Source: Lentilactobacillus buchneri
Lineage (GTDB): Bacteria; Bacillota; Bacilli; Lactobacillales; Lactobacillaceae
Direction: 5' to 3'
Assembly (NCBI RefSeq): GCF_018314255.1
Contig: NZ_CP073066.1
Location: 1,426,001 to 1,490,000, forward strand
DNA: 64,000 nucleotides
Positions 19,857 to 52,802 of the stretch are shown in pieces. The position numbers and the translations under genes were made by a program. The notes under the pieces were generated by a model, which searched no databases, was not told the origin of the DNA, and saw only the letters and a list, made by a program, of their open reading frames with translations. Positions within the stretch are counted from its first letter, which is position 1. The number at the start of each line of letters is the position of its first letter.

Positions 19857-19968
19857 GTGCGGCAGTCGGCTGATCCCGGCCATTTAAGCAAATAATCCGG
19901 CTATTCCAAAGACAGGAATAACCGGATTATTTGCTTAAATTCTGGGATCAAAACGCCTTATGTCCCAC
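19857..19968. repeat. Palindrome family A, copy 1 (112 bp)
   Basis: Nested inverted repeat: TGATCCC/GGGATCA, then ATTTAAG/CTTAAAT, a 12-bp stem CAAATAATCCGG/CCGGATTATTTG, and a core ATTCC-aaagaca-GGAAT. The copy at 52691 has the same length, arms and core but an entirely different 12-bp stem. The outermost arm here has mismatches. It ends next to the small membrane protein gene at 19972. Confidence 0.85.
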
Positions 19969-19971
19969 TCT

Positions 19972-20163
19972 TTAATTTAGATTAATCACATTGACTAAGA
20001 TAATTCCCATTACTAAAATCACCCCGACAAGGCCGACTGAGAACTTGGTAAACCATTTTCCGTTGACTTTATCGAGTAGGAAGAATGTGATTCCCAGACA
20101 AACTACGCCGATAACGTACATAATGATTAGTGCGGTCTTTACGGCAGCATCATCTTGTGCCAT
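19972..20163 (-). CDS. Small two-span membrane protein
   Basis: 63 residues: a short polar N-terminus (MAQDDAAVK), a first helix TALIIMYVIGVVCLGITFFLL, a charged loop DKVNGKWFTK and a second helix SVGLVGVILVMGIILVNVI. GAGGTG lies 6 nt before the ATG, which supports real translation. No family is recognised. It stands downstream of the GNAT gene on the same strand with a 40-bp gap and may be co-transcribed. Confidence 0.6.
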   Translation of the reverse strand: MAQDDAAVKTALIIMYVIGVVCLGITFFLLDKVNGKWFTKFSVGLVGVILVMGIILVNVINLN

Positions 20164-20204
20164 ATTATCACCTCATTAACCATATTGTACTCCAACTTGT
20201 TCGC

Positions 20205-20738
20205 TTACCCAATAACCAGTTGGTAGGCATAGCGTGGGGATGCTTCGCTGTCTTTTTCAGCCATGTAAATCGTGCCCCGTTTGGTAAAACCATTCGTGGT
20301 GATCACGTGCTGCATTCCCAAGTTGTCGGGATGCGTGTCAATTCGGATATCTTTGTAACCCAGAACACCGGAAATGGTGATTAGGCCGCTGATCATCTTT
20401 TGGGATAGGTGCTGGCCGCGGAAATTCGACGACATGGCGATCCGATGAATGGCGGTATAGCGGCCGTGGACGCCGTTGACCCATTCGCCATCGTGAATGT
20501 TGAGGTAGTTGACGTCCAATCCTTGGTGGAGAGCTGCGGTTCCGGCGATTTGGCCGTCAATAATTAACACGTAGGTGATCCCGTTGTTGACATCAAACTC
20601 CAAGTCTTCGGTGGCCGGATAGCCATCCTGCCATTGGTCGATGCCTTGCTTTTTAAGGTAGGCTTTTGCTTCTTCAATAATTTTTTTGATTTCTGGAAGG
20701 TCTGCATTGGTTGCTTGACGCAAATAAGTTGCTGACAT
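20205..20738 (-). CDS. GNAT-family N-acetyltransferase
   Basis: 177 residues covering one GNAT domain. The order of elements fits: LRQATNADLPEI at the N-terminus, VLIIDGQIAGTAAL as strands 2-3, and the acetyl-CoA loop RIAMSSNFRGQHLSQKMISG near residue 118, followed by IRIDTHPDNLGMQHVITTNGF. It acetylates an amine; the acceptor is unknown. The ATG at 20738 has no strong ribosome site nearby, so the start is less sure than the gene. Confidence 0.8.
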   Translation of the reverse strand: MSATYLRQATNADLPEIKKIIEEAKAYLKKQGIDQWQDGYPATEDLEFDVNNGITYVLIIDGQIAGTAALHQGLDVNYLNIHDGEWVNGVHGRYTAIHRIAMSSNFRGQHLSQKMISGLITISGVLGYKDIRIDTHPDNLGMQHVITTNGFTKRGTIYMAEKDSEASPRYAYQLVIG

Positions 20739-20872
20739 TTCGATTCACATCCCTGTTCATATTTCTAATTCAATTGATTAGATCAAAATAACACGAGAGT
20801 GAATTATAGAACAATATTATTTGGCATGCAATACAAAACATGTAAAAAGTTTTACTTTCTCATTTTTGGGGA

Positions 20873-20915
20873 AAGAAACCCGATACCATGCGATTCGCAG
20901 GTATCGGGTTTCTTA
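20873..20915. terminator. Hairpin terminator
   Basis: AGAAACCCGATACC with GGTATCGGGTTTCT around a 12-nt loop, downstream of csbD on the minus strand. Confidence 0.7.
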
Positions 20916-20930
20916 TTTAACAGCTGGATT

Positions 20931-21125
20931 TTACTTCTTGTCGTCCAAGGCATCATTCACTTTCTTGGACGCCTTTTCCTTGGCATCTTCAACCTTATCT
21001 TTGGCTTTCCCAGATGTCTTTTGAGCTTTGCCTTTCAGCTTCAACTTGTCGTTTCCGGTTACGTCGCCAACGGTTTCTTTGACTTTGCCGATGACTTCAT
21101 CGGACTTGTTTTTCAGATTTCCCAT
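20931..21125 (-). CDS. CsbD family stress protein
   Basis: 64 residues from the ATG at 21125; the GTG nine bases upstream overlaps the ribosome site. The sequence MGNLKNKSDEVIGKVKET.GD.TGN.KL..KGKAQ is the CsbD signature: small, soluble, rich in Lys, Asp and Gly, and predicted helical. In other Firmicutes such proteins accumulate under general stress; the molecular role is unknown. Confidence 0.88.
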   Translation of the reverse strand: MGNLKNKSDEVIGKVKETVGDVTGNDKLKLKGKAQKTSGKAKDKVEDAKEKASKKVNDALDDKK

Positions 21126-21238
21126 TAGTTTCACACCCTTTCCTTATCTCTACCATAAGCATACAGACTTTTTGAATGAATCACAAAAATAACGCCTCAG
21201 ATTTGAAAATTGTTTCAGAATGGTTAATTCCCCATTTG

Positions 21239-21281
21239 TTGGCAATGATTCGCCATAGTTTATGATATTATAGTCATAATA
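21239..21281 (+). promoter_or_regulatory. Promoter with palindromic operator candidate
   Basis: TTGGCA (21239), a 16-bp spacer and TATGAT (21261). The -10 box runs into a perfect inverted repeat TATTAT-agtc-ATAATA (21266-21281), placed over the expected transcription start, where a repressor would block. Confidence 0.5.
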
Positions 21282-21299
21282 CTAGGGGGTGGTTTCGAA

Positions 21300-22886
21300 A
21301 TGAATAAGGCCAGTTCGTCGGTAAATGATTCCGACACCCGTTCGAAACAACAAAAAATTCTCAGCATGTTGGGGTTAATGACTTCAAAAGTGCTGGGAGA
21401 AAATACTTACGCTAAGAGCTCAATCTATTCTGAACGAATTACCCGGGGCTTGCGGTCGTTTTTGCCCGGTCCGCTGCAGCCAAGTGTTTCGTTGGCAGAG
21501 TTTAAAATGTCCAAACCAATGCAGATGGGGTATTTGGCAGCCGCCAAGGATTTAAAACATGTCAGCATTGATCAATTTAACTATATGTCGCTGTGGGCGA
21601 CCGGAGATGACGACAGTTCAGTCGTCAACCGGGCAGCCGGCACTCAATTTTCTGAATACTTAAGTCAGAGCCAGGCTCCTGAAAAGTACGTTGTTGGTTA
21701 TAAGACAGCGGTGATTCAATTTGTCCGGGCGATTGCCGGCGCCGGTGGCGTTGTTTTCCGGATTAACTCTGCCTTGCAGAACCTGGATCTCAATCAACAG
21801 CGGACCCTGGTTAATCAGTGGTTTGACCACGTCAACGGCTATATGAACGGTGCTTCACCATTTAAAGCGATTAATAACCAAACGACCAAGCCATCGGCCA
21901 TCGATGAGACGATCGCCACGGGCGTTGCCAGGGAAATTAGCGATGGCTTTTTAAGCAACCAGCCAGTCGGTAATGATGAACAGTCGCTGCTCGGAAATTA
22001 TTCCTATAATGAAGACGATTTTAGTGACGAGCACGATTTACCCAAGATGATGACCGATGCGATCGGCAAAGTTTCGCTGACAGAAGATATTAATCTATTT
22101 GTCAACAACACGTTGGCCGGCATGGTCAATTCACTGGGATCAATCGGTTTATATGCGTTGGTTTACGCAAAATTCACTCAAAATAATCCCGATTTAGTCG
22201 GTGCTCCGATCACCAGTGCCGCTGATCAGGCAACGGTTCTTGCCAAGACCAAAGCCGCAGTTGAGGCAATTGGGAAATATTTGAACTTACCCCAATCAGG
22301 TGCTGATCTGGCAGAAAAGTTGGCTGTATTGAATTTAAGTAACGCCGGCAGTGCCAGAAATGCCAAACATCAGAACTATCAATTGCGATACAGTCGGGTG
22401 TTGGAAAATGACCGGCCACAGGTGAATGATCGCGGTGAAACGGTCAAGGTAGCCTATGGGATTTTTGAAACCACTCATCAGATTCTACAGAATGTTTTTT
22501 TAACGCCATTGATGGTGCAATATACGATGAGCAGAAATCAGTTGTTGACCCAAATTGCCTCCGGACAGTACACAACGTCACGGCAGGTGATTGAGCCGAG
22601 TTTCCAAGCTGCCGGAACCCTCTTTGATTATGTGGACGCCCTGGCGCGATTCCAGGTTGATCAATTAATTGGCCTGGTTGAACGGGGGAAGAAGGACGAT
22701 GACGGGATGTCTGCTGCTGGAAGTTTCAGTGCCTTCAGTCATTTAATGCGGGTCTATCCGGAAGTTAAATCGATCAATCCTGCGTATGCTGAGATGACAA
22801 AAGCCACCAAGCGGGTTTATTATTGGCTGTATCAATCTTCGTTTAAAGACCACTTACCTGAAGATGAACAGATAAAACTTAATTAA
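21300..22886 (+). CDS. Protein of unknown function, 528 residues
   Basis: A full-length soluble protein with AGGGGGTGG before its ATG. The first 18 residues are polar and probably disordered. Then comes SIYSERITRGLRSFLPGPLQPSVSLAEF, and a largely helical body with one hydrophobic stretch (VVGYKTAVIQFVRAIAGAGGVVFRI near 130-155) and another near 270-290 (LAGMVNSLGSIGLYALVYAKF). I recognise no domain or catalytic motif. It is a single-gene unit between a strong promoter and the terminator at 22889. Codon use resembles that of its neighbours. Confidence 0.7.
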   Translation: MNKASSSVNDSDTRSKQQKILSMLGLMTSKVLGENTYAKSSIYSERITRGLRSFLPGPLQPSVSLAEFKMSKPMQMGYLAAAKDLKHVSIDQFNYMSLWATGDDDSSVVNRAAGTQFSEYLSQSQAPEKYVVGYKTAVIQFVRAIAGAGGVVFRINSALQNLDLNQQRTLVNQWFDHVNGYMNGASPFKAINNQTTKPSAIDETIATGVAREISDGFLSNQPVGNDEQSLLGNYSYNEDDFSDEHDLPKMMTDAIGKVSLTEDINLFVNNTLAGMVNSLGSIGLYALVYAKFTQNNPDLVGAPITSAADQATVLAKTKAAVEAIGKYLNLPQSGADLAEKLAVLNLSNAGSARNAKHQNYQLRYSRVLENDRPQVNDRGETVKVAYGIFETTHQILQNVFLTPLMVQYTMSRNQLLTQIASGQYTTSRQVIEPSFQAAGTLFDYVDALARFQVDQLIGLVERGKKDDDGMSAAGSFSAFSHLMRVYPEVKSINPAYAEMTKATKRVYYWLYQSSFKDHLPEDEQIKLN

Positions 22887-22888
22887 AA

Positions 22889-22944
22889 TAAAATAGGATC
22901 GTGGGTCAAACGTTGTCAGCGTTTAGCCTACGGTCCTATTTTTT
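22889..22944. terminator. Shared bidirectional terminator
   Basis: AAAATAGGA...TCCTATTTT with an inner AAACG/CGTTT stem, between the converging 528-residue protein gene and the thiolase. Confidence 0.8.
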
Positions 22945-22948
22945 GTGA

Positions 22949-24133
22949 TTAAAGAAGTTTGATTGCCAGTGCGGAGCCCATCCCGCCGCCCATACAAAGA
23001 GAGGCAACGCCAAATTCTTGGTCGGTCCGGCGCAGATTATGCAATAACGTCGTCACGATGCGGGCACCAGAATCTCCGAGCGGATGACCCAGTGCGATTG
23101 CCCCACCGTTAATGTTAACTTTATCAACTGAAATGCCCAGATCACGAACAACTGCCACTGATTGAGAAGCAAAGGCCTCGTTGATTTCATAGAGGTCGAT
23201 GTCGTTGACTGACATGTTGAGCTGGGAGACCAATTGATTAATGGCTAAGTAGGGCGCATACCCCATGACTTCCGGGTTGATCCCGCGCTCGGCGTAACCC
23301 AGCACCTCTGCCATTGGAGATAGTCCCAACTGGTTTGCCCGGTCTTCAGTCATCATGATCAGAGCAGAAGCGCCGTCGTTTAGTGGTGCACTGTTGCCGG
23401 CAGTGACGGATCCGTTCGGTTTAAAAGCGGGACGAAGGGCGGCCAGTTTTTCCAAATTTGTGTCGACCCGGATCGATTCATCTTGCGCTACGATGTGGGG
23501 AGCGTGTGATTTGGGTTGGTTGAGTTCAATGGGAATAATTTCATCATCAAAATAATGCTGTTCAGTAGCTCGCGCAGCCAGTTGATGTGATCGCAATGCA
23601 AAAGCATCCTGTTCTTCACGTGAGACATGATATTGATCGGCAACGTTTTCAGCAGTCATTCCCATTGGTTCATCCGTCGCGGAATCACTTAGGCCGTCTC
23701 GTTGCAGCCCATCATATAATGTGACCGGCCCAAACTTGGTTGCCTTTCGTTGTGACATGTTCAAGTAAGGAACGTTGGACATGCTTTCGGTTCCGCCGGC
23801 AATGACCGTTTCCACTTCCCCGAGAAGCAAGGCGGATTGTGCTTGATGGATTGCTTGCAGTCCTGAACCACAGACTTGGTTGACTGTGAAAGCTGTTTTG
23901 CTTTCTGGAATTTGACTGTTCAATTCGATTTGTCGGGCAATGTTTTGGCCATTTCCGGCCTGGATGGCGTTGCCAAAGATAACTTGATCAACTTGGCTGC
24001 CGGAAAGACTAGCATCTTTTAATAAAGCACGCGTGACTTTTGAACCAAGTTGTTCGGCAGTTAATGAAGATAATGAGCCGTTTAATTTGCCGATGGCTGA
24101 TCGTTTGGCATCGATAATTACAATTTTCTTCAA
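22949..24133 (-). CDS. Acetyl-CoA C-acetyltransferase (thiolase)
   Basis: 394 residues, TTG start 9 nt after AAAGGAA. Thiolases join two acetyl-CoA into acetoacetyl-CoA, or the reverse; in lactobacilli this feeds the mevalonate pathway. The nucleophile Cys88 is in NQVCGSGLQA, His in GGAIALGHPLGDSGARI near residue 350, and the second Cys in SLCMGGGMG near residue 380. YEINEAFA is also intact, so it should be active. No HMG-CoA synthase or reductase lies beside it here. Confidence 0.92.
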   Translation of the reverse strand: MKKIVIIDAKRSAIGKLNGSLSSLTAEQLGSKVTRALLKDASLSGSQVDQVIFGNAIQAGNGQNIARQIELNSQIPESKTAFTVNQVCGSGLQAIHQAQSALLLGEVETVIAGGTESMSNVPYLNMSQRKATKFGPVTLYDGLQRDGLSDSATDEPMGMTAENVADQYHVSREEQDAFALRSHQLAARATEQHYFDDEIIPIELNQPKSHAPHIVAQDESIRVDTNLEKLAALRPAFKPNGSVTAGNSAPLNDGASALIMMTEDRANQLGLSPMAEVLGYAERGINPEVMGYAPYLAINQLVSQLNMSVNDIDLYEINEAFASQSVAVVRDLGISVDKVNINGGAIALGHPLGDSGARIVTTLLHNLRRTDQEFGVASLCMGGGMGSALAIKLL

Positions 24134-24272
24134 ATGATGACAGTTCCTTTCGCGAAGATTTCAATTGCCAGTATACAGGCTAAATGGTGTTTGCGGGGAG
24201 GATTTGTTCCCGGTATTAACAATCTTTAAGCTTTGTCAGCAACGATTTATTGAATTAATTTGAAATTACCTG

Positions 24273-24301
24273 TTGACCTCGGCCGAAATAGCTGATAATA
24301 T
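24273..24301 (+). promoter_or_regulatory. rRNA operon promoter P1
   Basis: TTGACC (24273-24278), 17-bp spacer, TAATAT (24296-24301), about 330 bp before the 16S gene. Confidence 0.7.
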
Positions 24302-24360
24302 ATTACTCGTTGCTTCAATGACATGAACACATATACCAATTGCTAATTAAAAAGTTTTTG

Positions 24361-24389
24361 TTGACTTGAAAGATTGGCTGTTATATAAT
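24361..24389 (+). promoter_or_regulatory. rRNA operon promoter P2
   Basis: TTGACT (24361-24366), 17-bp spacer, perfect TATAAT (24384-24389). Tandem strong promoters are usual for rRNA operons. Confidence 0.8.
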
Positions 24390-24500
24390 TGTTCTTGCTG
24401 TTAGAGGCAAGGGACACAAGGATTTGAATAAACGAACAATTCTAATTTATTCGCCAAAAATGTTTGTGTTCTGATGTAGACCTTTGAAAACTGAACAAAA

Positions 24501-24526
24501 TTTTCGACAAACAAATGTGCAGGACG
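24501..24526 (+). other. 16S precursor processing stem, 5' arm
   Basis: TCGACAAACAAATGTGCAGGA in the leader pairs with TCCTGCACATTGTCGA at 26222-26240 after the 16S gene, giving the long stem that RNase III cuts to free pre-16S. A CTTTGAAAACT box lies just before (24482) and recurs in the spacer near 26279. Confidence 0.65.
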
Positions 24527-24627
24527 TTTCAATTCTTCGGAATTGGAACCAAACATTTGCGAAGTCAATTCGTAAAACAAATAATAAATTTAAATCATGA
24601 GCTATCACAGGCTTATCATTTTAAACA

Positions 24628-29350
<4,723 letters not shown>

Positions 29351-29425
29351 TAGAAATGGTGTTCAAGGGCAGAAAATTAATATTAGCTAGTTTTGAGAGA
29401 ACGAAGTTCTTTCAAGGAAAAATAG

Positions 29426-29542
29426 TGTGGTGGCGATAGCCAGAAGGATACACCTGTTCCCATGCCGAACACAGAAGTTAAGCTTCTGCACGCCAAGAGT
29501 AGTTGGGGGATCGCCCCCTGCGAGGGTAGGACGTTGCCACGC
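29426..29542 (+). rRNA. 5S ribosomal RNA
   Basis: About 117 nt, TGTGGTGGCGATAGCCAGAA to ACGTTGCCACGC, with the conserved CCCATGCCGAACACAGAAG. The 5' and 3' ends pair (GTGGTGGCG/CGTTGCCAC). Confidence 0.95.
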
Positions 29543-31582: not shown

Positions 31583-31599
31583 ATCAAAAATACTTCTCG

Positions 31600-31755
31600 C
31601 CAGTCGTTGAGCTTTAGCACTATGTGATGTAGTTAAAAATTAACAGCTACGTTAGTCCAAGCCTTACTTTGACCTGGACAGCTGACTCATTGGCGTTTTT
31701 CGACGTTTCTGAGCAGTAGCATTTTCCACATAGGAGCCTCACCTAACAGCTTTAT
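31600..31755 (-). promoter_or_regulatory. M-box (ykoK) magnesium riboswitch
   Basis: Minus-strand sequence contains the conserved blocks GTTAGGTGAGGCTCCTAT, CTACTGCTCAGAAACGTCG, AAACGCCAATGAGTCA and, at the 3' end, TAGTGCTAAAGCTCAACGA. These are in order and spaced as in the B. subtilis M-box. It senses Mg2+ and stops transcription when Mg2+ is high. Downstream comes only a 30-codon ORF, which is unusual because M-boxes normally precede Mg2+ transporter genes. Confidence 0.92.
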
Positions 31756-31776
31756 TCATTTTTCATTCCACAAGTT

Positions 31777-37562: not shown

Positions 37563-38210
37563 TCAGATTTCTGTATCTCCTAAAATTAACCGGGTAATCA
37601 TATTGGCTTCGTGACCGGCCGCAATCATGACCCGCGGTGCCATCAAGCCCTCAGCCCCCATGGATTCACCGTCACCAGCGATGTATAAATTCTTGCGGGG
37701 ATGCTTGGTGGTAATCGTGTTGGAACTGTGAATGCCGGCCATCCCGGTGCCCATCACAATTGGCTTGTCGGGATAGAACTCGGATGCGGCATCCAGCAGC
37801 ATCGCCTTGGCAGCAGGGTTATCGAACGCTTCAGTGATGATGTCAGCGTCTTCGAACAATTCTTTGACGTTGTCATGAGTCACTTTAGTTTGGTGAATTT
37901 GAATTTCCACGAACGGATTAAATTCCTGCAGGTTTTGCTTTAAGGCCACAACTTTTGGCATGTCCACCTGACTGAGTTTAAATTGCTGACGGTTGAGGTT
38001 ACTGAGCTCAACTGTGTCAAAGTCAATCAACGTCAAGTGGCCGACGCCAATCCGGGTCAGCGCAATCGCGATATTGGACCCTAAACCACCGGCCCCGGCA
38101 ATCGTGACGTGAGCGGCAGCTAATTTGTCAGTTGACCCCTTAACATTGCGTTCTTTCATGCCGAGATAAACGTCATCGTAACTCATTCCTTGAATTTCTG
38201 GTTCTTGCAT
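37563..38210 (-). CDS. thiF: ThiF-type sulfur-carrier adenylyltransferase
   Basis: 215 residues, the short ThiF form found in many Firmicutes. It activates the C-terminus of ThiS with ATP. Motifs: nucleotide loop [19 protein letters not shown] near residue 35, [17 protein letters not shown] near 60, and [13 protein letters not shown] near 130. The ribosome site AAAGGAG is about 12 nt from the ATG, which is long. It sits between the palindrome-filled spacer after thiS and thiG. Confidence 0.88.
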
Positions 38211-38232
38211 GTTGTCAATCGACTCCTTTTAT

Positions 38233-38508
38233 ATCAGTGAGCGGATCCAAGCGGTTAGGAGTCGGAGTGTAAGTCTCCTTCAAGAGAAATTCCCGGTTTT
38301 GGAATTTATCTTGAAGGTGCTTACAGGCAGACTCCTGCTTGGAGGAGCTGTCCTAATCAGTGAGCGGATCCAAGCGGTTAGGAGTCGCCAAGTAGGCTAG
38401 GCGTTTCACGGCCGTCGGATTGTAAGTCTCCTCGGAAGTAAATTCCCTGGTTTTGGGGATTTGCTTCCGAGGTGCTTACAAGGAGACTCCTGCTTGGAAC
38501 CACCATCC
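38233..38508. repeat. Tandem palindromic elements between thiS and thiF (family D)
   Basis: Two units start with the same 32 bases (38233-38264 and 38356-38387), 123 bp apart. Each is a nested palindrome with conserved outer arms (CCAAGCGGTTAGGAGTC ... GACTCCTGCTTGG; TGTAAG/CTTACA) and a conserved GGTTTTGG loop. The middle stem differs but stays complementary: CCTTCAAGA/TCTTGAAGG in unit 1, CCTCGGAAG/CTTCCGAGG in unit 2. Unit 2 carries about 30 extra bases, and its outermost TCCTAACCG arm overlaps the thiS stop. Confidence 0.8.
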
Positions 38509-38705
38509 TAACCGCCACCAACAAACGAGATTAACTCCAGTTTGTCGTTGTCGGCAATTTTAGTTGTGTCAAATTCAGAGCGGTGGACAATCTTGCCGTT
38601 CTGTTCGACGACGATGTTTTCAATTGGTGCTTCTCTTTGTTTCAAGAACTCGGTGATTGTTTGACCAACCATACCGGATTCTTGTTCACCGTTAACCATC
38701 ACCAT
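38508..38705 (-). CDS. thiS: Sulfur carrier protein ThiS
   Basis: 65 residues of ubiquitin-like fold ending in ELISFVGGG; the last two glycines carry the thiocarboxylate handed to ThiG. The start is the ATG at 38705, 9 nt after AAAGGGG. That ribosome site lies inside a terminator hairpin (38713-38745), so folding would hide it. It is the first gene after the TPP riboswitch. Confidence 0.88.
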   Translation of the reverse strand: MVMVNGEQESGMVGQTITEFLKQREAPIENIVVEQNGKIVHRSEFDTTKIADNDKLELISFVGGG

Positions 38706-38707
38706 AC

Positions 38708-38745
38708 AAAAAGACCCCTTTCTTCAGATTCCGAAGAAAGAGGTC
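38708..38745 (-). terminator. Second riboswitch hairpin, overlapping the thiS ribosome site
   Basis: Minus-strand stem GACCTCTTTCTTC / GAAGAAAGGGGTC followed by TTTTT. It is a standard intrinsic terminator and also sequesters the AAAGGGG of thiS. Confidence 0.75.
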
Positions 38746-38786
38746 AGTGGATGTCTTTTCAACATTAAGTTCGATTCACAGAAAAG

Positions 38787-38817
38787 AAAAACCTTCTTTT
38801 CTGCAAAAAGAAGGTTT
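38787..38817 (-). terminator. First terminator after the TPP aptamer
   Basis: Minus-strand AAACCTTCTTTT / AAAAGAAGGTTT with a short loop and TTTTTC, 30 bp after the aptamer. Confidence 0.75.
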
Positions 38818-38844
38818 AAGGTCAAAATAAATTCAACATTAAAT

Positions 38845-38922
38845 TCGCTCTTCCTTCGGCAGTACAAACTACATCAGGTTCGATGGGTGTAATCTCAGCC
38901 GTTTCAGGCACCCCAGACGAAA
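38845..38922 (-). promoter_or_regulatory. TPP riboswitch (THI box)
   Basis: On the minus strand: GGGGTGCC, GGCTGAGATTACACCC, GAACCTGATGTAGTT, GTACTGCCGAAGGAA. These are the universal thiamine pyrophosphate aptamer blocks in order. It controls the thiS-thiF-thiG-amidohydrolase-symporter operon, turning it off when TPP is plentiful. Confidence 0.95.
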
Positions 38923-39069
38923 TATTCAATTAGGCTTGAAACTTTGCTCAAGCTCATAATCTATTTATAACCGCTTACAATCTGAAAGTCAAGTGAGAAA
39001 TACTTCTATACTTTTTGCCGAGGTTCATTTACACTGATGGCAAATGAGAAAATATTGGAGGAAATGATT

Positions 39070-39702
39070 GTGAAACTAACAAATCGACCACTCTATTTGG
39101 TGACGGACCACACCGGATTGACTGATGAACAATTCTTTGGCGCGATTGAAGCGGGTGTGCAAAATGGGGTTGGCTTGGTCCAACTTAGGCAAAAAGAGGG
39201 CAGTAGCCGCGAAATTTTTGAACTTGCTCTAAAGGTAAAGGCCATTACCGATCGGTACAAGATTCCCCTGATTATTGATGACCGATTGGACATTGCTCAA
39301 GCGGTTGATGCCGCCGGTGTTCATCTTGGTCAAAGTGATTTGCCGGTAGACATCGCTCGCCGAATCTTAGGACCCAAGAAGATTATCGGTGCAACGGCCA
39401 AGACATTGAAGCAGGCTAAAGCAGCTGAAGAGATGGGCGCCGATTACCTGGGAACCGGAGCCATTTTCCCAACCACGACACACGTTAAGACCGTTCATAC
39501 GACGGTAGAAACCCTTGGTAAGATCAAACGATTGGTGGATATTCCCGTGTATGCGATTGGCGGCTTGAAGGCCGATAATGTCGAGGCTATTGATGGTGCC
39601 CACGTTGATGGGGTGGCTGTGGTTTCTGCGATTATGAAGGCTGCCGATCCGGCGAGTGCTACCCGGGAGTTGCGGGATGCGGTTGAGGAAGCTATTGGGT
39701 AA
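39070..39702 (+). CDS. thiE: Thiamine phosphate synthase
   Basis: 210 residues from the GTG at 39070, 7 nt after TTGGAGGAA; an upstream ATG at 39037 lies before that site. It joins the pyrimidine diphosphate and thiazole phosphate into thiamine phosphate. Visible: VQLRQKEGS, IIDDRLDIAQAVDAAGVHLGQSDLP, YLGTGAIFPTTTH, VYAIGGLKADN and VAVVSAIM. It is divergent from the thiS operon and has no TPP box of its own in its direction. Confidence 0.93.
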   Translation: MKLTNRPLYLVTDHTGLTDEQFFGAIEAGVQNGVGLVQLRQKEGSSREIFELALKVKAITDRYKIPLIIDDRLDIAQAVDAAGVHLGQSDLPVDIARRILGPKKIIGATAKTLKQAKAAEEMGADYLGTGAIFPTTTHVKTVHTTVETLGKIKRLVDIPVYAIGGLKADNVEAIDGAHVDGVAVVSAIMKAADPASATRELRDAVEEAIG

Positions 39703-43230: not shown

Positions 43231-43277
43231 CGTTTGGTTAATTGTTGACCCGTTAAATAACCATTTAGACAAAGAAT

Positions 43278-43404: not shown

Positions 43405-45225
43405 TTAATCACGCTTACGCCGTTTGAAAATCATGGCGCCGGAAATGATAATGACGGCCAATGAAACGTCACCCAGAATACTGAGCCAATTTTGTCGCTT
43501 ATCACCAGTTTGTGGTAAGACGGATGCTTTTTCAATTGGTGTCTTGCCAGTTATATCTCGGGAATTCCGCGATGTGCGGTTAGTAGTGGTTCCCGTTGAA
43601 TGATTTGGCTTAGTCGGCCAATTGGAGTGAGTCGACTTGGTTGGCTGGTTAGGCTGATTTGGCCGACTTGGTTTATTCGGCGTATTTGGTCGATTAGGTT
43701 GTGTCGGTTTATTTGGCTTATTCGGCTGATTCGGTCGATTTGGTTTATTTGGCTTATTCGGCTGATTAGGCCGATTTGGTTTATTTGGCTTATTTGGCTT
43801 ATTTGGCTTATTTGGTTGCGTTGGCTGATTAGGTTGCGTTGGTTGATTAGGTTGCGTTGGCTGATTAGGCTGAGTTGGTTGGTTAGGTTGTGTCGGCTGG
43901 TTCGGCTGAGTTGGCTGGTTCGGTTGCGTCGGCTGGTTCGGCTGAGTTGGTTGGTTTGGTTCAGTTGGCTGATTAGGCGTGGATGGAGTAACCCACAGAA
44001 TGATTCCAGGGACGTCAGAAAGTATTGGGTACTGCAGTTCCCCAAGAATGGTGGCCACCATGGAATCAATAAACTCGCCAATCGTATCACCAAAATCTAT
44101 AGGTTGGCCGGAAACACTCGCGGTCGCTAAGTTTGTCGTTTCACTTTGATTAGGACTAGTTACAGGGGCGGTGGTAGTGGTTGAGCTGCTATTAAGCCCC
44201 AACCCATCCTTCAAGGCATTCCAAATATCCCAAGGGGAAGACCACAGTCCACCAGTTAAGAACTGAAGAACTCGTCCAGGAATCACGATCGGTTCCGATG
44301 AGGAGTTAATCGGATACAAGGATATTGTCCCACCACCAAGAATTGCAGGTGCCGAAATGACTGCGCCGGCAATGGCTTGTGGAATAATAGTCGCTAGTTG
44401 AAAGACCTGTTCCCAAAAATCACTGGAATTTGGGTCCGCCAGTGACTGGGTATCAATGGGTGTCTTGGCTAACGAAGCAGTCTGATCGGCTGTTGCCGAT
44501 GAAGCAGTGGGGTCCGCGGTAGTGGCTGTCTTTGCGGAATCAGCAGTTGCATCAGTGTTTTCAGTAGTGGCCGTGTTCTGATCATCGGTTGTGGTTGGGT
44601 CAGAGGCTTTGTTCTGGTCGTCAGCCGCATTTTGATCAGGTTGGTCGCTTGTCTGGTTCGATGGGTCAGTCGTGGTGGCATCATTGTCAGTGCCGGTTGT
44701 AGATGGATCATTAGTCGTATTCGTAGTCGTTGCGGGTTGATTACTCTCTTGATCAGTCCCAGTCGTCTGGGTCGAGTTATTCGTCTCCGTTGTTGCAGGA
44801 TCCGCAGTCGGTGCTTGATCAGTTCCCTGATCATCTGCCGTCGTTGCTGGAGTGGTTGCACCACTTGTTTGATTAGCGTCAGGAGTCGTGGTGGTTGCAC
44901 CACTTGCTTGGTTAGAATCAGAAGTGGTCGTCGCTGCAGTGTTCTGTGACTGAGCTGGAGTCTGGCTATTATCCGTTGTGGCTGTCGAGCTGTCAGCTGA
45001 ACTGGTTTGGGCAGCGGTTTGCGTATCGGCACTCGGTTGAGTAGTCGCAGCTGTCGTAGTTGGTGCCGGTGCCTGATTATCGCTGGTATCGGCTTCGACT
45101 GTGCTGGCACCAAACGCACCGCCGGCCATCAAGCCAACGGTGAGTAGTGAAGCGTACAGCCAATGTTTCCCGGCCTTATACATTTTGTAATGAACCTTTG
45201 AATTGGTTCGATTTAATTTTGTCAT
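43405..45225 (-). CDS. LPXTG cell-wall-anchored surface protein, Ser/Thr-rich
   Basis: 606 residues. The N-terminus holds a KxYKxGKxW-type signal (MYKAGKHWLYASLLTVGLMAGGAFGAS). A Thr/Ser/Asp/Gln-rich region spans about 48-255, a more ordered segment about 260-410, then Pro-rich repeats (PTQPNQ, then KPNKPN/RPNQPN) to about 550 that would span the cell wall. LPQTG at 570, a membrane helix and the tail KRRKRD form the sortase signal. The low-complexity DNA keeps other frames open; those are not genes. A glycosyltransferase gene lies 71 bp upstream on the same strand. Confidence 0.93.
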   Translation of the reverse strand: MTKLNRTNSKVHYKMYKAGKHWLYASLLTVGLMAGGAFGASTVEADTSDNQAPAPTTTAATTQPSADTQTAAQTSSADSSTATTDNSQTPAQSQNTAATTTSDSNQASGATTTTPDANQTSGATTPATTADDQGTDQAPTADPATTETNNSTQTTGTDQESNQPATTTNTTNDPSTTGTDNDATTTDPSNQTSDQPDQNAADDQNKASDPTTTDDQNTATTENTDATADSAKTATTADPTASSATADQTASLAKTPIDTQSLADPNSSDFWEQVFQLATIIPQAIAGAVISAPAILGGGTISLYPINSSSEPIVIPGRVLQFLTGGLWSSPWDIWNALKDGLGLNSSSTTTTAPVTSPNQSETTNLATASVSGQPIDFGDTIGEFIDSMVATILGELQYPILSDVPGIILWVTPSTPNQPTEPNQPTQPNQPTQPNQPTQPNQPTQPNQPTQPNQPTQPNQPTQPNQPTQPNKPNKPNKPNKPNRPNQPNKPNKPNRPNQPNKPNKPTQPNRPNTPNKPSRPNQPNQPTKSTHSNWPTKPNHSTGTTTNRTSRNSRDITGKTPIEKASVLPQTGDKRQNWLSILGDVSLAVIIISGAMIFKRRKRD

Positions 45226-46781: not shown

Positions 46782-46929
46782 CACCCCCCTGTTGGTTATG
46801 TATAACGATATAGGCATGAATATTATGTCGAAGCATTGAAATAATCTATTTTCAAAATTGATTTGAGCACACTGAAGTGCTTTGCTGACGGCATCCTTGT
46901 CAATGGTGTGAGCCAAGTTGGCCATCATG

Positions 46930-47195: not shown

Positions 47196-47224
47196 TTGTA
47201 ATAACATTGTAATTACGATATACT
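47196..47224 (+). promoter_or_regulatory. mazEF promoter
   Basis: TTGTAA (47196-47201), 17-bp spacer, TATACT (47219-47224). The spacer holds a palindrome GTAATTAC and a second GTAAT, which could be the antitoxin binding site. Confidence 0.65.
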
Positions 47225-47252
47225 TAGCTCAAATTTTAGGGAGGAATTGATC

Positions 47253-47516: not shown

Positions 47517-47878
47517 GTACATCCTTTCCTGAACAAGGCGATATTATTGTTTTAGATTTTGACCCCCACACTGGGCATGAAATGGGCGGACATACGACTA
47601 GCCACCTGCGACGACCAGCAGTGGTGGTATCGAACGCCCAATATAATCGGTTGACAGGATTTGTTGTCGTGATGCCTATCACGCACGGCACTAGTCAAAT
47701 TCAAAAGGGATTCGAACCGATTCTTGACCCAAGTAGTCGTACCAATGGCTATATTGTGACTTGGCAAACACCCAATTATGATTATGTTGCCCGTAACGGC
47801 GCGATCATTGGTCAAGTTCCTGATAAACTTCGTAAACGCTTATGTACCTTGGCGGTCGACATTGTGGCTGCCAATTAA
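47513..47878 (+). CDS. mazF: MazF/PemK-type endoribonuclease toxin
   Basis: 121 residues. The fold starts QGDIIVLDFDPHTGHEMGGH, then RRPAVVVSNAQYNRLTGFVVVMPIT and RNGAIIGQVPDKLRKRL, all standard MazF/PemK features including the active-site Arg and Thr positions. It cuts mRNA at short sequences when freed from the antitoxin. ATGA overlap with mazE couples translation. A terminator follows directly. Confidence 0.92.
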   Translation: MSTSFPEQGDIIVLDFDPHTGHEMGGHTTSHLRRPAVVVSNAQYNRLTGFVVVMPITHGTSQIQKGFEPILDPSSRTNGYIVTWQTPNYDYVARNGAIIGQVPDKLRKRLCTLAVDIVAAN

Positions 47879-47888
47879 GTGAAATACC

Positions 47889-47922
47889 AAGAGCTGGTGT
47901 GTTAGTGCTAGCTCTTTTTGTA
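47889..47922 (+). terminator. Terminator of mazEF
   Basis: AGAGCT/AGCTCT stem, 18-nt span, then TTTTT. Confidence 0.7.
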
Positions 47923-47929
47923 AAGAGTC

Positions 47930-48017
47930 GGAATTCCCGCTTAGTCCAATAAGGACCGTTAACGTAAAAACAGCGTTAACGGTCCTTGTTAAATTAATGC
48001 TCAAAAGCTTGATTGGC
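47930..48017. repeat. Palindrome family B, copy 3 (partial)
   Basis: It shares CCGCTTA on the left and ATTAATGCTCAAAAGCT on the right with the 124-bp family B copies, but carries a new 14-bp stem AAGGACCGTTAACG/CGTTAACGGTCCTT. The outer arms are degraded. Confidence 0.6.
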
Positions 48018-48055
48018 ATTTATGGTTATTTTTCAGATTTGGCTGCCTTTGAGGA

Positions 48056-48172
48056 CAGCTCCGACAACCCTGACCCCTACCACATAAGCCAAAAAAATCA
48101 TGGATGAACAAGAAGCGTTCATCCATGATTTTTCTGACTTATGTTCCGGGGTCAACCCGGGTTTCGTCGCTC
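48056..48172. repeat. Large nested palindrome (family C)
   Basis: Paired blocks from outside in: CGAC/GTCG, CCC/GGG, TGACCCC/GGGGTCA, CATAAG/CTTATG and a perfect 17-bp stem AAAAATCATGGATGAAC / GTTCATCCATGATTTTT with a 7-nt loop. It lies between families B3 and B2, so about 420 bp here are made almost wholly of palindromes. Confidence 0.75.
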
Positions 48173-48221
48173 ACTACTGTTCTTCCAACAGGTTGAGTAG
48201 TGTGTTCTCGACTTCTACATA

Positions 48222-48345
48222 GTGGAAACGTGCCATTTAAGCCAGCTTTCTCCGCTTAATAAAATAACAGGCATTGATGCAAAAAGCGCATCAACACCTG
48301 TTATTCCATTAATGCTCAAAAGCTAACCGGCTTAAAGGGCACTCT
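48222..48345. repeat. Palindrome family B, copy 2 (124 bp)
   Basis: Same length, outer arms and GATGC...GCATC core as copy 1 (10767-10890), with a different middle stem (AATAACAGG/CCTGTTATT). The right end overlaps the gnd stop codon by two bases, so it may also act as the gnd terminator. Confidence 0.8.
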
Positions 48346-49777
48346 ATTGTTCTTCATACCAAGTATAATGGAAACTCCCTGGACGGTCGACACGCTCATA
48401 GGTGTGGGCACCGAAGTAGTCACGTTGTGCTTGGAGCAAGTTTGCTGGGACAACTTCTGAACGATATGAGTCGTAGTATGAGACAGCGGCGGCTAATGAT
48501 GGTACTGGGACGCCGGCCTTGGTTGCCAATGCTACGACGTCACGTGCTGATTCTTGATACTTCTTGGCGATATCCGTGAAGTATGGATCCAGCAGCAGGT
48601 TTTGCAAATCTGGGTTCTTGTCGTAGGCGTCGGTAATGTTTTGAAGGAATCGGGCACGAATAATGCAGCCGGCTCTCCAAATCTTGGCCATTTCGCCTAA
48701 TTGGATATCCCACTTGTATTGTTCTGAAGCAGCCTTTAATTGAGCAAAGCCCTGGGCATAACTCATAACTTTACCGAAGTAGAGGGCTTCACGAACTTTT
48801 TCAACGATTTCTTTCTTATCAAAATCAACTTTGCCTTCCGGCTTAGGGAGGACTTTGGATGCTGCGACACGTTCGTTCTTGATCATTGAGATATAACGAG
48901 CGTAAACGGCTTCGGTGATCACTGATTGGTCAACACCGACTTCGAGGGCATCTTGTGAGCTCCACTTACCAGTTCCTTTGTTGGCACCACGGTCAAGAAT
49001 CATGTCAACGATTGGCTTGGTCTTGTCAGCACCAATATCATCCTTATGAGTCAAAATGTCGGCGGTAATTTCGATTAAGTAGCTGTCGAGTTCACCTTTG
49101 TTCCAATCTTTAAAGATGTCAGCCAATTCATCAACTGAGTAGCCGGCAAGGTTTCTTAAAATGTTGTAACTTTCATCAATTAACTCTTCATCACCATATT
49201 CGATACCGTTGTGCACCATCTTAACGTAGTGTCCGGCACCATTTGGTCCAATGTAAGTAACACATGGTTCGCCGTCAGCAGGTGCCTTGGCAGCGATTTG
49301 CTTGAGAATTGGTTCTACCAAATCATAAGCTTCTTTTTGGCCGCCTGGCATCAATGATGGTCCTTGTAAGGCACCAAGTTCACCACCTGAGACACCCATG
49401 CCGATAAAGTTGATTCCTGATTTATCAAGACGGGCATTTCGAGCCATCGTATCGTGGAAGTTTGTGTTACCACCATCGATCAGGACATCGCCTTTATCGA
49501 GGAGTGGCAGTAATTCATCAATAACAGCATCGGTTGGTTTACCAGCCTTAACCATTAAAATAATTCGACGAGGCGTTTCAAGTGATTTAACAAAGTCTTC
49601 AATCTTGTAACTTGGAACTAGTTTCTTGTCTCCATGATCCTTCATAACTGCTTCAGTCTTGGAGCCGGTTCTGTTGAAAATGCCAACAGTGTAACCGCGG
49701 CTTTCGATGTTAAGGGCTAAGTTCTTACCCATAACAGCCATACCAACAACACCAATGTTTGCTTTTTGATCAGCCAT
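48344..49777 (-). CDS. gnd: 6-phosphogluconate dehydrogenase, decarboxylating
   Basis: 477 residues from [17 protein letters not shown]; the longer upstream reading lacks a ribosome site, while AAAGGATGG precedes this ATG. It converts 6-phosphogluconate to ribulose 5-phosphate, CO2 and NAD(P)H, the step that feeds phosphoketolase in heterofermenters. Motifs: [50 protein letters not shown] and the C-terminal [16 protein letters not shown]. zwf lies upstream on the same strand but as a separate transcript. Confidence 0.96.
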
Positions 49778-49917
49778 TTCAAAACCATCCTTTTCTATAT
49801 AAGAATTACTACACAATTAGTGTACCATCTCACAAGTGGAAAGTGAAACAAAAACGCGTTGGAACAGTATGCCGAATTTGTTAGATGAGAGATTGTGAAA
49901 ATGAAAAGTCGTTTTGT

Positions 49918-49931
49918 GGGGAGCGCTTACA
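49918..49931. promoter_or_regulatory. Candidate cre site upstream of gnd
   Basis: GGGGAGCGCTTACA matches TGWNANCGNTNWCA except at two left positions. It is about 140 bp before the gnd start. The core TAAGCGCT (reverse strand) is shared with the site at 8445. Confidence 0.35.
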
Positions 49932-50057
49932 TAATTCAAAATGACCGATTTTCAATCATTGAGGGATTTTGTTGCTTGAAAAATGTAAATCTGGATCCAT
50001 GGACTTTCAGCAAAATGGTAAAAATTTACAATTTATTTCAAACGTTAACCCAAACAA

Positions 50058-50095
50058 AAAGCTGACCGAAAACGAATTGGTTTTCGGTCAGCTAA
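50058..50095 (-). terminator. Terminator of zwf
   Basis: AGCTGACCGAAAAC/GTTTTCGGTCAGCT, then TTTTTG on the minus strand. Confidence 0.85.
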
Positions 50096-50107
50096 ATTGG
50101 TTAGATG

Positions 50108-51586
50108 TTACTTATTCAATTTGTATACCCATTCACGGTGATCGCGGGCAAGCAATTCATCAGCTGAAACTGGGCCCATTGATCCTGGAATGTAGTTAGG
50201 GAACATTGGTTGTTGAATATCCCAAACTCGACGGATTTGATCAACAAACTTCCAAGCACTGGCAACTTCTGGCCAGCTGGCGAAGTTGGTACCGTCGCCC
50301 TTCAAAACGTCGTGGATTAAGCGTTCGTAAGGTTGTGGTGTTTCGCGGGTGCGCTTTGAATCTTCAAGGTATTGCAACTGAACGGGTTCAGTGTGGAATC
50401 CTTGTTCGGAGTTCTTGGCGTTAACCATCAATGAGAAGCCTTGGTTTGGTTCGATGAAGATAGTCAAAACGTTGGCACTCAGTGGTGCACTGCCGCTTTG
50501 TGGGAAGGCGAAGATGTCAACTAATGGCTTCTTGAAGACAACATCAACTCGGGTGAACTTGTCAGCGAGTTTCTTACCGGTTCTAATGTAGAACGGTGTG
50601 CCTGACCAACGGTAGTTATCGAATAACAACTTGCCGGCAACAAAGGTTTCAGTGTTGGAATCCTTTGGAACACCGTCTTCTTCACGGTATTCTTTATCGT
50701 TACCAACGGCAGCGTATTGACCACGGACAAAGTTGCTTGATGCTTCGGCAACGTTGTAAACCCGCAGGCTACGCAATGCTTTGACTTTTTCAGCACGGAT
50801 ATCAGTATCCTTGAACGCAACCGGTTGTTCCATCGCAAGCAAACTGACAATCTGCATGATGTGGTTTTGAACCATGTCACGAAGGGCACCGGAGTTGTCG
50901 TAGTAACCGGCACGCTCTTCAACACCCAGCTTCTCAGCAAGGGTGACTTGAATGTTGTCGATGTAACGGTTGTTCCAGAGGGCTTCGAAAATGGTGTTAC
51001 CGAAACGAATAGCTTCGATGTTTTGGATCATTTCCTTACCTAAGTAATGGTCAATTCGGAAGATTTGGTCTTCTTCAAAGGCATTGCTTAGGTCGTCGTT
51101 TAACTGTTTGGCTGATTCGAAATCACGGCCAAATGGCTTTTCAATGACCAAGCGGTTAAAGCCGTTTCCTTCGGAGAGAAGGTGTTGAGCCTTAAGGTTT
51201 TTAGCAACGGTTCCGAAGAAGTTGGGTGCCATTGAAATGTAGAACACGCGGTTCCCGTTCAATTCATACTTCTTGTCCAACTCGTTGGCTTTGTTTTTCA
51301 ATACAGAATAGTGTTCAAGGTCAGTCACATCATGGGTCACAAAATAGAAATGGCTGGCGAAATCAGCAATTTGTTTTTTATTAGTAGATTCTTTAGAAAC
51401 AGACTTGATGACCATTTCACGGTATTTTTCATCATCGAACTTGTAACGGGAAGTTCCAATCACAGCAAAGTGATCGCGAATGTTTCCCTTCTCGAAAAGC
51501 TTTAACATTGCGGGATAAAGTTTACGAGTGGCAAGGTCACCAGTTGCTCCGAAGAGCATAATCAAAGAACGTCTTTCAGTTGGCAA
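50108..51586 (-). CDS. zwf: Glucose-6-phosphate 1-dehydrogenase
   Basis: 492 residues from a TTG at 51586, 8 nt after ATAGGAG; the open frame runs 35 codons further but contains no better start. It oxidises glucose 6-phosphate to the lactone with NAD(P)+, the entry to the phosphoketolase pathway. Visible: coenzyme loop FGATGDLATRKLYPA, active-site RIDHYLGKEMIQN near residue 175 and WSGTPFYIRTGKKL near 340. A promoter with a perfect -10 lies about 65 bp upstream. Confidence 0.95.
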   Translation of the reverse strand: MPTERRSLIMLFGATGDLATRKLYPAMLKLFEKGNIRDHFAVIGTSRYKFDDEKYREMVIKSVSKESTNKKQIADFASHFYFVTHDVTDLEHYSVLKNKANELDKKYELNGNRVFYISMAPNFFGTVAKNLKAQHLLSEGNGFNRLVIEKPFGRDFESAKQLNDDLSNAFEEDQIFRIDHYLGKEMIQNIEAIRFGNTIFEALWNNRYIDNIQVTLAEKLGVEERAGYYDNSGALRDMVQNHIMQIVSLLAMEQPVAFKDTDIRAEKVKALRSLRVYNVAEASSNFVRGQYAAVGNDKEYREEDGVPKDSNTETFVAGKLLFDNYRWSGTPFYIRTGKKLADKFTRVDVVFKKPLVDIFAFPQSGSAPLSANVLTIFIEPNQGFSLMVNAKNSEQGFHTEPVQLQYLEDSKRTRETPQPYERLIHDVLKGDGTNFASWPEVASAWKFVDQIRRVWDIQQPMFPNYIPGSMGPVSADELLARDHREWVYKLNK

Positions 51587-51650
51587 AATGTTCACTCCTA
51601 TCAGAATATTAACTAAGTAATTTGGTATATGTCTATACCAGTTCCCCAAC

Positions 51651-51679
51651 ATTATATAACACATGAGACCCCAACAAAA
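51651..51679 (-). promoter_or_regulatory. zwf promoter
   Basis: Minus-strand TATAAT at 51656-51651 with a T-rich weak -35 (TTTTGT) 17 bp upstream. Confidence 0.55.
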
Positions 51680-51787
51680 GCGAATTGCCAATGTAAATGA
51701 ATAAAATTTACAAGCATATTCTTTTCATAATTAGCCCGCTAAAAGCGATGCCTAAACAGTGACGGTTTTCTTAAGAAAAGGATAAAT

Positions 51788-51815
51788 GAAGGCCGACTTG
51801 ACGGCTTTTTTTGCC
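51788..51815 (+). terminator. Short hairpin terminator
   Basis: AGGCCG/CGGCTT stem followed by seven T, just upstream of the secreted-protein gene, which has its own TATAAT near 51826. Confidence 0.55.
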
Positions 51816-51866
51816 CATATCCTTTATAATGAGTCATGCAAAATAAAGATTAGGGAGCAATATCAA

Positions 51867-52595
51867 ATGAAGAAATTTAAGTTTATCGCGTTCTTTGCTG
51901 TCCTCGCATCATTTTTGATTGGGTTCAGTGTCAACGCTTCTGCAAGTTCTCCGTCACTTAAAGTCAATAACATTTACACGACCTCAAAGGCAGTGACTGG
52001 AACTGCCACCAAAGGTGTTGCCATTATTGTTCGAAACACCAACAAAACCACCATTGCCAGCACCACTGCTGACAGTTCAACTGGCAAGTTCAGTGCCGAG
52101 CTGCACACCAGTGTTAAAGCCAACCAGAAGCTTTATGTCTACGCCCGGAAGTCATCAACCTCATACTTCTACCGAATTATGACCGTTAAGACTCCTAAGA
52201 CTGCCACGACAACAACCACGACTGGTTCAAGCACCAAATCAACCAGCAGTAAGATCAACATTTCAGAACCAACTGGTCGTTGGCAATCAGGCAACAACAA
52301 TGGCTACAGCGTTGTCACCAACTTCAGCCAAAAGGGTGGTTTGAACCAAGGCTTGTATAAGAATGGCAAGTATCAAAAGAAGCTGATCAACTTCGCCAAC
52401 TACAAAGTTACGACTTACTCAAAGACCTTCTGGGGAATTACTTACCGTGAACGCGGCAGCAAGACTTACCACAAGTTCTACTTGAGATTCACTGACAATA
52501 CGCATTTCATCATTGTCAACAAAGCCAACCATGCGATCAAGGTTCAATATGGCAACACACCGCTTCACTACTACAAATTTGCTTTAGTTAAATAA
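51867..52595 (+). CDS. Secreted protein with Ig-like domain
   Basis: 242 residues from MKKFKFIAFFAVLASFLIGFSVNASA, a typical signal peptide cut after ASA. The start follows AGGGAG; a longer upstream frame is not supported. Residues 30-110 form a bacterial Ig-like domain (LKVNNIYTTSKAVTGTATKGVAIIV). A Thr/Ser linker (TATTTTTTGSSTKST) leads to a beta-rich C-terminal domain of about 100 residues (GRWQSGNNNGYSVVTNF, FWGITYRERGSKTYHKFYLRF) that I do not recognise. There is no LPXTG, so it is released or bound non-covalently. Confidence 0.78.
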   Translation: MKKFKFIAFFAVLASFLIGFSVNASASSPSLKVNNIYTTSKAVTGTATKGVAIIVRNTNKTTIASTTADSSTGKFSAELHTSVKANQKLYVYARKSSTSYFYRIMTVKTPKTATTTTTTGSSTKSTSSKINISEPTGRWQSGNNNGYSVVTNFSQKGGLNQGLYKNGKYQKKLINFANYKVTTYSKTFWGITYRERGSKTYHKFYLRFTDNTHFIIVNKANHAIKVQYGNTPLHYYKFALVK

Positions 52596-52615
52596 TTTTA
52601 ACCAGCTATTTGATT

Positions 52616-52664
52616 CGGGGCTGGGACATGACTGCTTTTATGTTATGTTCCAGCCTCTTTTTGA
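52616..52664 (+). terminator. Terminator of the secreted protein gene
   Basis: GGGGCTGGGACAT / ATGTTCCAGCCTC with TTTTT. Confidence 0.85.
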
Positions 52665-52690
52665 GTTTCTACTGTTATCCTTGATTAAAC

Positions 52691-52802
52691 GTGGAACGCG
52701 AGGCTGATCCCGGCCATTTAAGGCACAAATCGAGTCATTCCAAGAACAGGAATAACTCGATTTGTGCCTTAAATTCTGGGATCAAAACGCCTCGTGTTCC
52801 AC
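52691..52802. repeat. Palindrome family A, copy 2 (112 bp)
   Basis: The best-preserved copy: GTGGAACGCGAGGC.TGATCCC on the left pairs with GGGATCA.GCCTCGTGTTCCAC on the right. Inside are ATTTAAG/CTTAAAT, the stem GCACAAATCGAG/CTCGATTTGTGC and the core ATTCC-aagaaca-GGAAT. Length and everything but the 12-bp stem agree with copy 1. Confidence 0.88.

Follow-up and report, generated by a model that had tools for sequence, protein, structure and literature searches.

A large, apparently undescribed family of hairpins in lactobacilli that keeps its shape while its stems vary and often lies directly behind stop codons

The analysed stretch of the Lentilactobacillus buchneri genome (64,000 nucleotides, positions 1,426,001 to 1,490,000 of contig NZ_CP073066.1; hereafter the window) carries two palindromes of 112 bp at 19857-19968 and 52691-52802, exactly where an earlier inspection of the sequence (the original prediction) had placed them. 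Both contain the outer arms and the core described there, and their 12-bp stems differ, each being perfectly paired. The homologous unit exceeds 112 bp and comprises a modelled 117-nt core on the minus strand, at 19854-19970 (copy 1; covariance model (CM) score of 121.1 bits, RNA fold z-score of -9.5) and 52688-52804 (copy 2; 131.9 bits, -15.1), followed by a conserved tail that extends to approximately position 19837 in copy 1. One C-A mismatch on the plus strand lies between stem and core in both copies and corresponds to U-G on the minus strand. When both strands of both copies were folded, z-scores ranged from -9.5 to -15.9, and none of 200 dinucleotide shuffles folded as well. Copy 1 begins 1 nt behind the TAA stop codon of a 63-aa open reading frame (ORF) on the same strand (19972-20163), taken from the ORF listing and situated in a region alignable between relatives, and copy 2 has a same-site copy with compensated changes in L. 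parakefiri (genome G015). The two palindromes are a small part of a large hairpin family in lactobacilli that is apparently undescribed and whose members look like structured RNA tails of messages.

The copies share one architecture on one strand, consisting of an outer helix, a 4-nt bulge (mostly GNUU), a 7-bp helix, an internal loop (mostly AGA/GGCC), a long upper helix, a loop, and a conserved tail. On the minus strand, copies 1 and 2 start with A and GAGUG, followed by a 14-bp outer helix, the bulge on the 5' side (here GUUU), the 7-bp helix, and an AGA/GGCC internal loop that is identical in most copies; the upper helix of approximately 26 bp carries a loop of approximately 7 nt, and the tail after the closing CAC is near GUUUCRGCUARGUAACA. 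The middle of the outer helix lacks Watson-Crick pairing in most copies of the sequence family to which the original prediction assigned both palindromes (family A), and an A at position -1 is nearly constant (90% and 97%). Several sequence families of this genome have the same shape with other stems, as do copies in other species. These further families, the defined strand, and the location behind stop codons were missed in the original prediction. No conserved promoters were seen by eye at the 5' end of the element, and a candidate pseudoknot between bulge and tail, also checked by eye, was rejected as inconsistent across families.

In some copies, the final portion of the outer helix holds an extra hairpin of approximately 35 nt. 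An optional hairpin module in loci L008, L010, L012, L013, L017, L020, and L030 starts near GCCAAGTAGGCTAG, near the 3' arm of the outer helix, and a similar module lies between tandem copies at approximately 38387-38416 of the window. In L133, L143 (L. diolivorans), and L310 (plasmid of Loigolactobacillus backii), a second small hairpin with a loop like that of the main element seems to come after the tail. At L024/L028 (G000:C1:684957-686573), an insertion of approximately 1.5 kb with inverted ends, probably an insertion sequence (IS), apparently interrupts the hairpin loop of an element.

Pairing was examined in three alignments. Alignment A1 holds 25 chosen copies of this genome, aligned without a structure model and with the strand set by homology; A2 holds 41 matches at E ≤ 1e-19 from 40 chosen loci of this genome, with the strand set by model score; and A3 holds 75 matches at E ≤ 1e-15 from 62 loci (62 copies at named loci and 13 from the family search). 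Three of the 52 pattern loci (L109, L117, and L128) are absent from A3, and 49 of the 52 pattern loci behind it are from Lentilactobacillus. In A1, 91.4% of cells were paired and double changes occurred in 23 of the 47 pairs. The corresponding figure for A2 was 93.6%, with 390 of 1919 cells altered on both sides, a value matched in 0 of 500 shuffles, and pairing fell to 37-43% when the partner was slid. In A3, 95.5% of cells were paired, 856 of 3493 were altered on both sides, and 43 of the 47 pairs had double changes. Both A2 and A3 favour the structure because they were fitted to a model of that structure. A tree-aware null was built on A3 from a FastTree phylogeny, Fitch states, and branch-wise reshuffling of substitutions among columns (40 replicates). 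Of 6328 column pairs at least five columns apart, 27 were significant at E < 0.05, and every one of them is a structure pair (of 47), with no significant pair in the remaining 6281; many of the 20 non-significant structure pairs are nearly invariant. The outer helix is the weakest part, with 73%, 82%, and 88% of cells paired in A1, A2, and A3. As the stems vary freely yet stay paired, selection for structure is well supported. The original prediction had proposed both such selection and a covariation test, and it is upheld by this result, by strand-specific tolerance of G-U pairs, and by compensated changes at a site common to two species. Among the non-Watson-Crick cells on the minus-type strand, G-U outnumbered A-C by 62:8, 87:10, and 139:18. 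This excess on the element strand points to RNA, and its polarity indicates that one strand is selected, although G-T pairs in folded single-stranded DNA would be compatible with it too. Identical cells read as A-C on the opposite strand.

Descent could be followed at sites shared between species. At the 52688 site, comparison of the present genome (G000) with G015 showed five pairs changed on both sides and still paired, one changed to G-U, and two broken in one species. At the 19854 site, compared with genome G012, both partners differ in eight pairs of the upper helix and a single partner in one more, all paired, and the 7-bp helix has one pair changed on both sides and still paired; five pairs of the outer helix changed, and four of these are unpaired in at least one of the two species. 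Shared-site copies do not keep one common stem by descent, and the isolated pieces of arm or core that were inspected belong to truncated, degenerate, or interrupted copies, so that two outcomes named in advance as counter-evidence did not materialize.

The original prediction had also offered a copying mechanism in which the two arms are rewritten jointly, and the array behind gnd bears on it. Downstream of gnd (6-phosphogluconate dehydrogenase, Pfam 6PGD; 48344-49816, minus strand) lie, on the same strand, a divergent element beginning with the G of the gnd TAG stop codon (48227-48344; 63.7 bits; orthologous 3' flanks), a second element of the AGTGAGCG...GGAGCTGTCC type (48053-48174; 56.4 bits with model R2; matches behind gnd in G015 and G013), and a third hairpin representing a truncated element (47941-47997; identified from inverted repeat I18 and the sequence). 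Element 1 has nearly the same frame in G000 and G015, whereas its hairpin in G015 is very different and looks like element 3 of G000. Whole replacement of the G015 hairpin was considered and rejected, as parts of it still align; the likeness is to element 3 of the G000 array. The difference is best read as probable recombination between array members. Recombination between tandem copies thus seems to contribute, with the array suggesting whole-hairpin exchange between elements. L056:1355-1471 of this genome looks like a hybrid formed by exchange inside the cap and has four unpaired upper-helix cells, whereas 32 of 41 copies have none. Template switching or gene conversion acting alone on an unselected structure is nevertheless very unlikely: a strand-blind process should not yield 139 G-U against 18 A-C cells, the bulge, internal loop, and tail are conserved though unpaired, and the compensated changes at the 52688 site are single pairs scattered along the helices, together with a G-U step.

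The position of the element relative to genes was assessed by counting sense stop codons -2 to 15 nt before it, with an ORF cut-off of 80 codons. Such a stop was found for 22 of 41 and 39 of 75 copies, compared with 0/41 and 1/75 in a mirror control (opposite strand, 3' end) and approximately 0.8 per set at random positions in the same loci. Lowering the cut-off to 30 codons gave 25 and 40 copies, with 5 and 4 in the mirror control and 4.0 and 5.6 at random. In 13 of the 75 copies, the first G of the element doubles as the last base of a TAG stop codon, as it does in gnd. Copy 1 is 235 nt from a stop codon in the neighbour tally, which does not include the 63-aa ORF ending next to it. Of 54 copies of this genome, 24 are flanked by convergent genes and 16 by co-directional ones. 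The same position recurs on plasmids, where one of four queries matched one record, another seven, and two none; in all six annotated regions examined from these eight records (four genera, four genes), the element starts 0-12 nt past the end of the coding sequence. The upstream genes are a phosphotransferase system (PTS) gene in L. kefiri, fabI in Loigolactobacillus backii, a nucleobase symporter gene in Lactiplantibacillus plantarum (the same protein on three plasmids), and add in Levilactobacillus brevis, where the element matched in its first part only.

Copies are numerous in this genome and unevenly distributed among its relatives. A BLAST search with copy 1 gave 54 matches in its own genome. 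Covariance model R1, built from 25 copies, gave 115 matches at E ≤ 10, including both strands per place, with the best 150 of 1476 candidates scored, and merging yielded at least 43 places reaching 87 bits, at least 59 reaching 45 bits, and at least 65 reaching 30 bits. The merged list, from which some opposite-strand duplicate rows were left out, holds at least 71 places in all, six of them below 30 bits. This count is incomplete because only the best 150 candidates were scored, and it misses the window copies near 10772, 48055, and 48227, which were recovered in searches of the window. Within the genus, 17 of 24 genomes had matches at E ≤ 0.01, with 1 to at least 138 per genome (both strands counted, best 150 candidates). 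In a sample of the family, matches at E ≤ 1e-8 occurred in 82 of 251 genomes, which represent 20 of 40 genera, and in a class-level sample the only one of 299 genomes with a match was that of the present strain, two other family members in the sample giving none. One query against a phage collection returned no match.

Comparison of the elements of relatives used 84 of 135 match rows, with opposite strands and at least three places (L108:5037, L145:7899, and L152:1577) dropped. Around CGL (18633-19778), six of 17 loci had a match (L189, L192, L194, L195, L196, and L204). Of seven genomes compared behind CGL, G000 and G012 have a copy on the strand facing CGL, G013 has one in the direction of CGL, G003 has one in each direction (the far neighbour may be another gene), G007 and G022 have none, and G015 has a degenerate half (by eye). 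Behind gnd, 10 of 24 genomes have a clear element, all 10 with a TAG stop codon, and locus L254 has a degenerate element and TAA; the other 13 lack an element, with 11 TAA and 2 TAG stop codons, and most have an ordinary terminator (by eye). Copies are thus gained and lost between related species.

Dispersal without genes and variable presence among relatives, as well as one copy directly after a tRNA gene, would also suit a mobile element acting at the DNA level, in which a transposase (IS200/IS605 or REP style) recognises the hairpin as single-stranded DNA and the pairing persists for the sake of mobility, not of an RNA role. Folded single-stranded DNA likewise tolerates G-T pairs. We consider this explanation unlikely, since the Y1 transposase domain PF01797 had no match in the present genome (controls matched in 5 of 14 genomes; the search was confined to this transposase type), target duplication was not seen by eye, and a placement that tracks genes and reading direction is not predicted by single-stranded DNA transposition by itself.

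We prefer to regard the element as a repeat that is dispersed, carries no gene, and is under selection as an RNA fold; it often stands at the very start of the 3' untranslated region (UTR) and sometimes supplies the TAG stop codon of the upstream gene. We put the probability of this reading at roughly 0.6. Shape selection on one strand, sense-direction position behind stop codons, and presence or absence between species are shown by the data above, and function and mobility may be envisaged as follows. The element would be co-transcribed with the upstream gene (copies 1 and 2 being read on the minus strand) and, once the terminating ribosome clears the stop codon, would fold into a very stable hairpin. 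A trans-acting factor may recognise the conserved bulge, internal loop, and tail, and the fold could govern the fate of the message end, either by blocking a 3' exonuclease or through slowed or destabilised termination, as has been reported or proposed for REP, ERIC, and BOX repeats. Copies would spread by some transposition route and recombine within tandem arrays. A bolder version is conceivable but doubtful: a mobile RNA element of Lactobacillaceae, itself without genes, would insert at stop codons and contribute a TAG, and only its three-dimensional shape would be maintained because a dedicated host factor reads the bulge, internal loop, and tail at the message end; if true, it would amount to genome-wide control at 3' UTRs, in which dozens of genes carry one RNA shape with hardly any common stem sequence.

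Several observations weigh against the RNA-fold reading. For approximately half of the copies, no sense stop codon was detected within 15 nt, and in 13 of the 54 copies of this genome both neighbours are on the other strand (two are flagged as inside an ORF); copy 2 is one of these 13, lying antisense between two plus-strand genes. In Secundilactobacillus similis, an element (L140:5959-6079) begins immediately past the 3' terminus of a tRNA gene (L140:5886-5958), so that not every copy has a ribosome terminating in front of it, and the element site at 3024 of the window lies beyond a terminator-like hairpin (by eye). A strict scan found intrinsic terminators downstream of only 7/41 and 9/73 copies and upstream of 0 and 3, two of the 75 rows of A3 having been dropped for short flanks. 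With regard to strand, the model chose the strand of each A3 copy, which could sharpen the G-U bias, and both strands fold about equally well, so that folding energy cannot separate them. Placement may also partly reflect spots where insertions harm least, by analogy with pneumococcal repeats, for which an excerpt of PMC3049150 suggests that the bias of BOX for convergent gaps may be evidence of mobile, parasitic elements in tolerant places, an alternative to be taken seriously here as well.

The terminator scan also flagged the element itself in 7/41 and 10/73 copies, probably owing to T runs within the arms, which raises the possibility of a worn-out or decorated intrinsic terminator whose upper hairpin belongs to a terminator family with a common cap. 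Terminator-like remnants do occur: the hairpin at 4098-4139, in which the original prediction correctly noted a third stem, sits inside a degenerate minus-strand copy (4071-4177; 35.4-37 bits), and the G015 remnant at the 19854 site is followed by a T run. An origin of this kind is very unlikely for the family, as most copies lack a U tract after the helix and their arms run on through the internal loop into two more covarying helices; an intrinsic terminator is a G+C-rich hairpin with a direct U tract, whereas most full copies run into CUUAAAU-GGCC-helix. Moreover, the element-free sites that were compared have their own ordinary terminator (by eye). The original prediction had also reported a lone right arm at 3024-3049. 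A lone arm exists there, recorded in inverted repeats I1 and I4, but it is the 5' arm of a truncated plus-strand copy (3024-3055), as indicated by a full copy in L. parakefiri (L146:253-369) with the same upstream sequence.

Three further copies were found in the window. A divergent element of the GTGCGAAACAAGCC-GGTT-AGCTTCG type occupies 10772-10889 on the minus strand (65.5 bits with R2). On the plus strand, a divergent element at 38237-38353 (52.1 bits) adjoins the start of a thiF-like gene (ThiF), to which it is antisense, and is followed by a tandem second copy at 38418-38485, modelled in its upper part (26 bits; direct repeats D4, D8, and D11). The region 38233-38511 thus holds a tandem divergent pair with a hairpin insert, near a thiamine pyrophosphate (TPP) riboswitch at 38833-38925, and the G015 alignment skips 38069-39292, which contains both elements. 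Elsewhere in the window, an M-box magnesium riboswitch was found with Rfam at 31592-31757 on the minus strand, and dense repeats with a 9-bp period at 43603-43989 lie in a long minus-strand ORF (43405-45225) that perhaps encodes a repetitive surface protein. The rRNA operon at 24631-29542 has no adjacent tRNA genes according to ARAGORN.

The original prediction did not recognise a named element, and at the curated cut-off no Rfam family fell on the elements of the window or of 18 other loci: the window returned only rRNAs, the M-box, and TPP, and the other loci returned only T-box and tRNA matches outside the elements. With copy 1 at E ≤ 1, only matches below the cut-off appeared, mostly microRNA-type hairpins, which were rejected. 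No description of this hairpin family was found in the open-access literature that was searched. The element would also represent a new structured RNA family that had no Rfam 15 match as tested and occurs in 20 of the 40 Lactobacillaceae genera sampled. A partial precedent is the L17 downstream element (RF01708), a structured Lactobacillales RNA behind a gene with a proposed action in the 3' UTR; in the section of PMC2864571 cited, it is tied to one gene, that of ribosomal protein L17, which sets it apart from the present element. Excerpts of PMC4824070 report that a terminator close behind a gene is repressed, an effect ascribed to the ribosome.

BOX of Streptococcus pneumoniae resembles the lactobacillar element in being dispersed, gene-less, tightly folded, and enriched between convergent genes, and BOX copies form the ends of 36 annotated genes, whose stop codons they encode (PMC3049150, in part). 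Copies at gene 3' ends that sometimes give the stop codon were likewise found here. As described in the same excerpt, BOX is modular (boxA, boxB, and boxC) and defined by sequence profiles, whereas here the stems are free and the architecture is kept. ERIC of enterobacteria is a 127-bp repeat with a long stem loop, transcribed with its neighbours, which destabilises upstream transcripts in an orientation-dependent, ribosome-linked manner, and it differs in its terminal inverted repeats, TA termini, target duplication, and phylum (PMC2229807, in part). The present element shares with ERIC and miniature inverted-repeat transposable elements a gene-less, dispersed, strongly folded unit of 100-200 bp, and its outer helix gives inverted ends; duplication was not seen by eye at the compared sites, which did not include an exact empty site in a very near strain. 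It is not classed as ERIC or BOX because their defining ends and modules are not established here.

REPs are accompanied by a REP-associated tyrosine transposase (RAYT, Y1), the domain of which (PF01797) was matched in 0/1 genomes here (own genome only; controls 5/14). Palindromes behind genes are common to both, and in E. coli 446 of 4,072 REPs lie within 15 nt of a stop codon and are reported to stall ribosomes or lower translation (PMC12306157, in part). REPs measure 20-40 bp according to an excerpt of PMC3733652, compared with a 117-nt core plus tail, and the element is not classed as REP because it is much longer and no Y1 transposase match was found in its own genome. The dozens of copies in some genomes represent comparable natural replicates, and together with the conserved shape they make compensatory evolution and structures at the site of translation termination testable in food bacteria. 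The hairpin family appears to work most like BOX, ERIC, or REP repeats; such repeats are usually recognised by sequence, whereas in this family conservation resides in the shape and stem sequence is nearly free.

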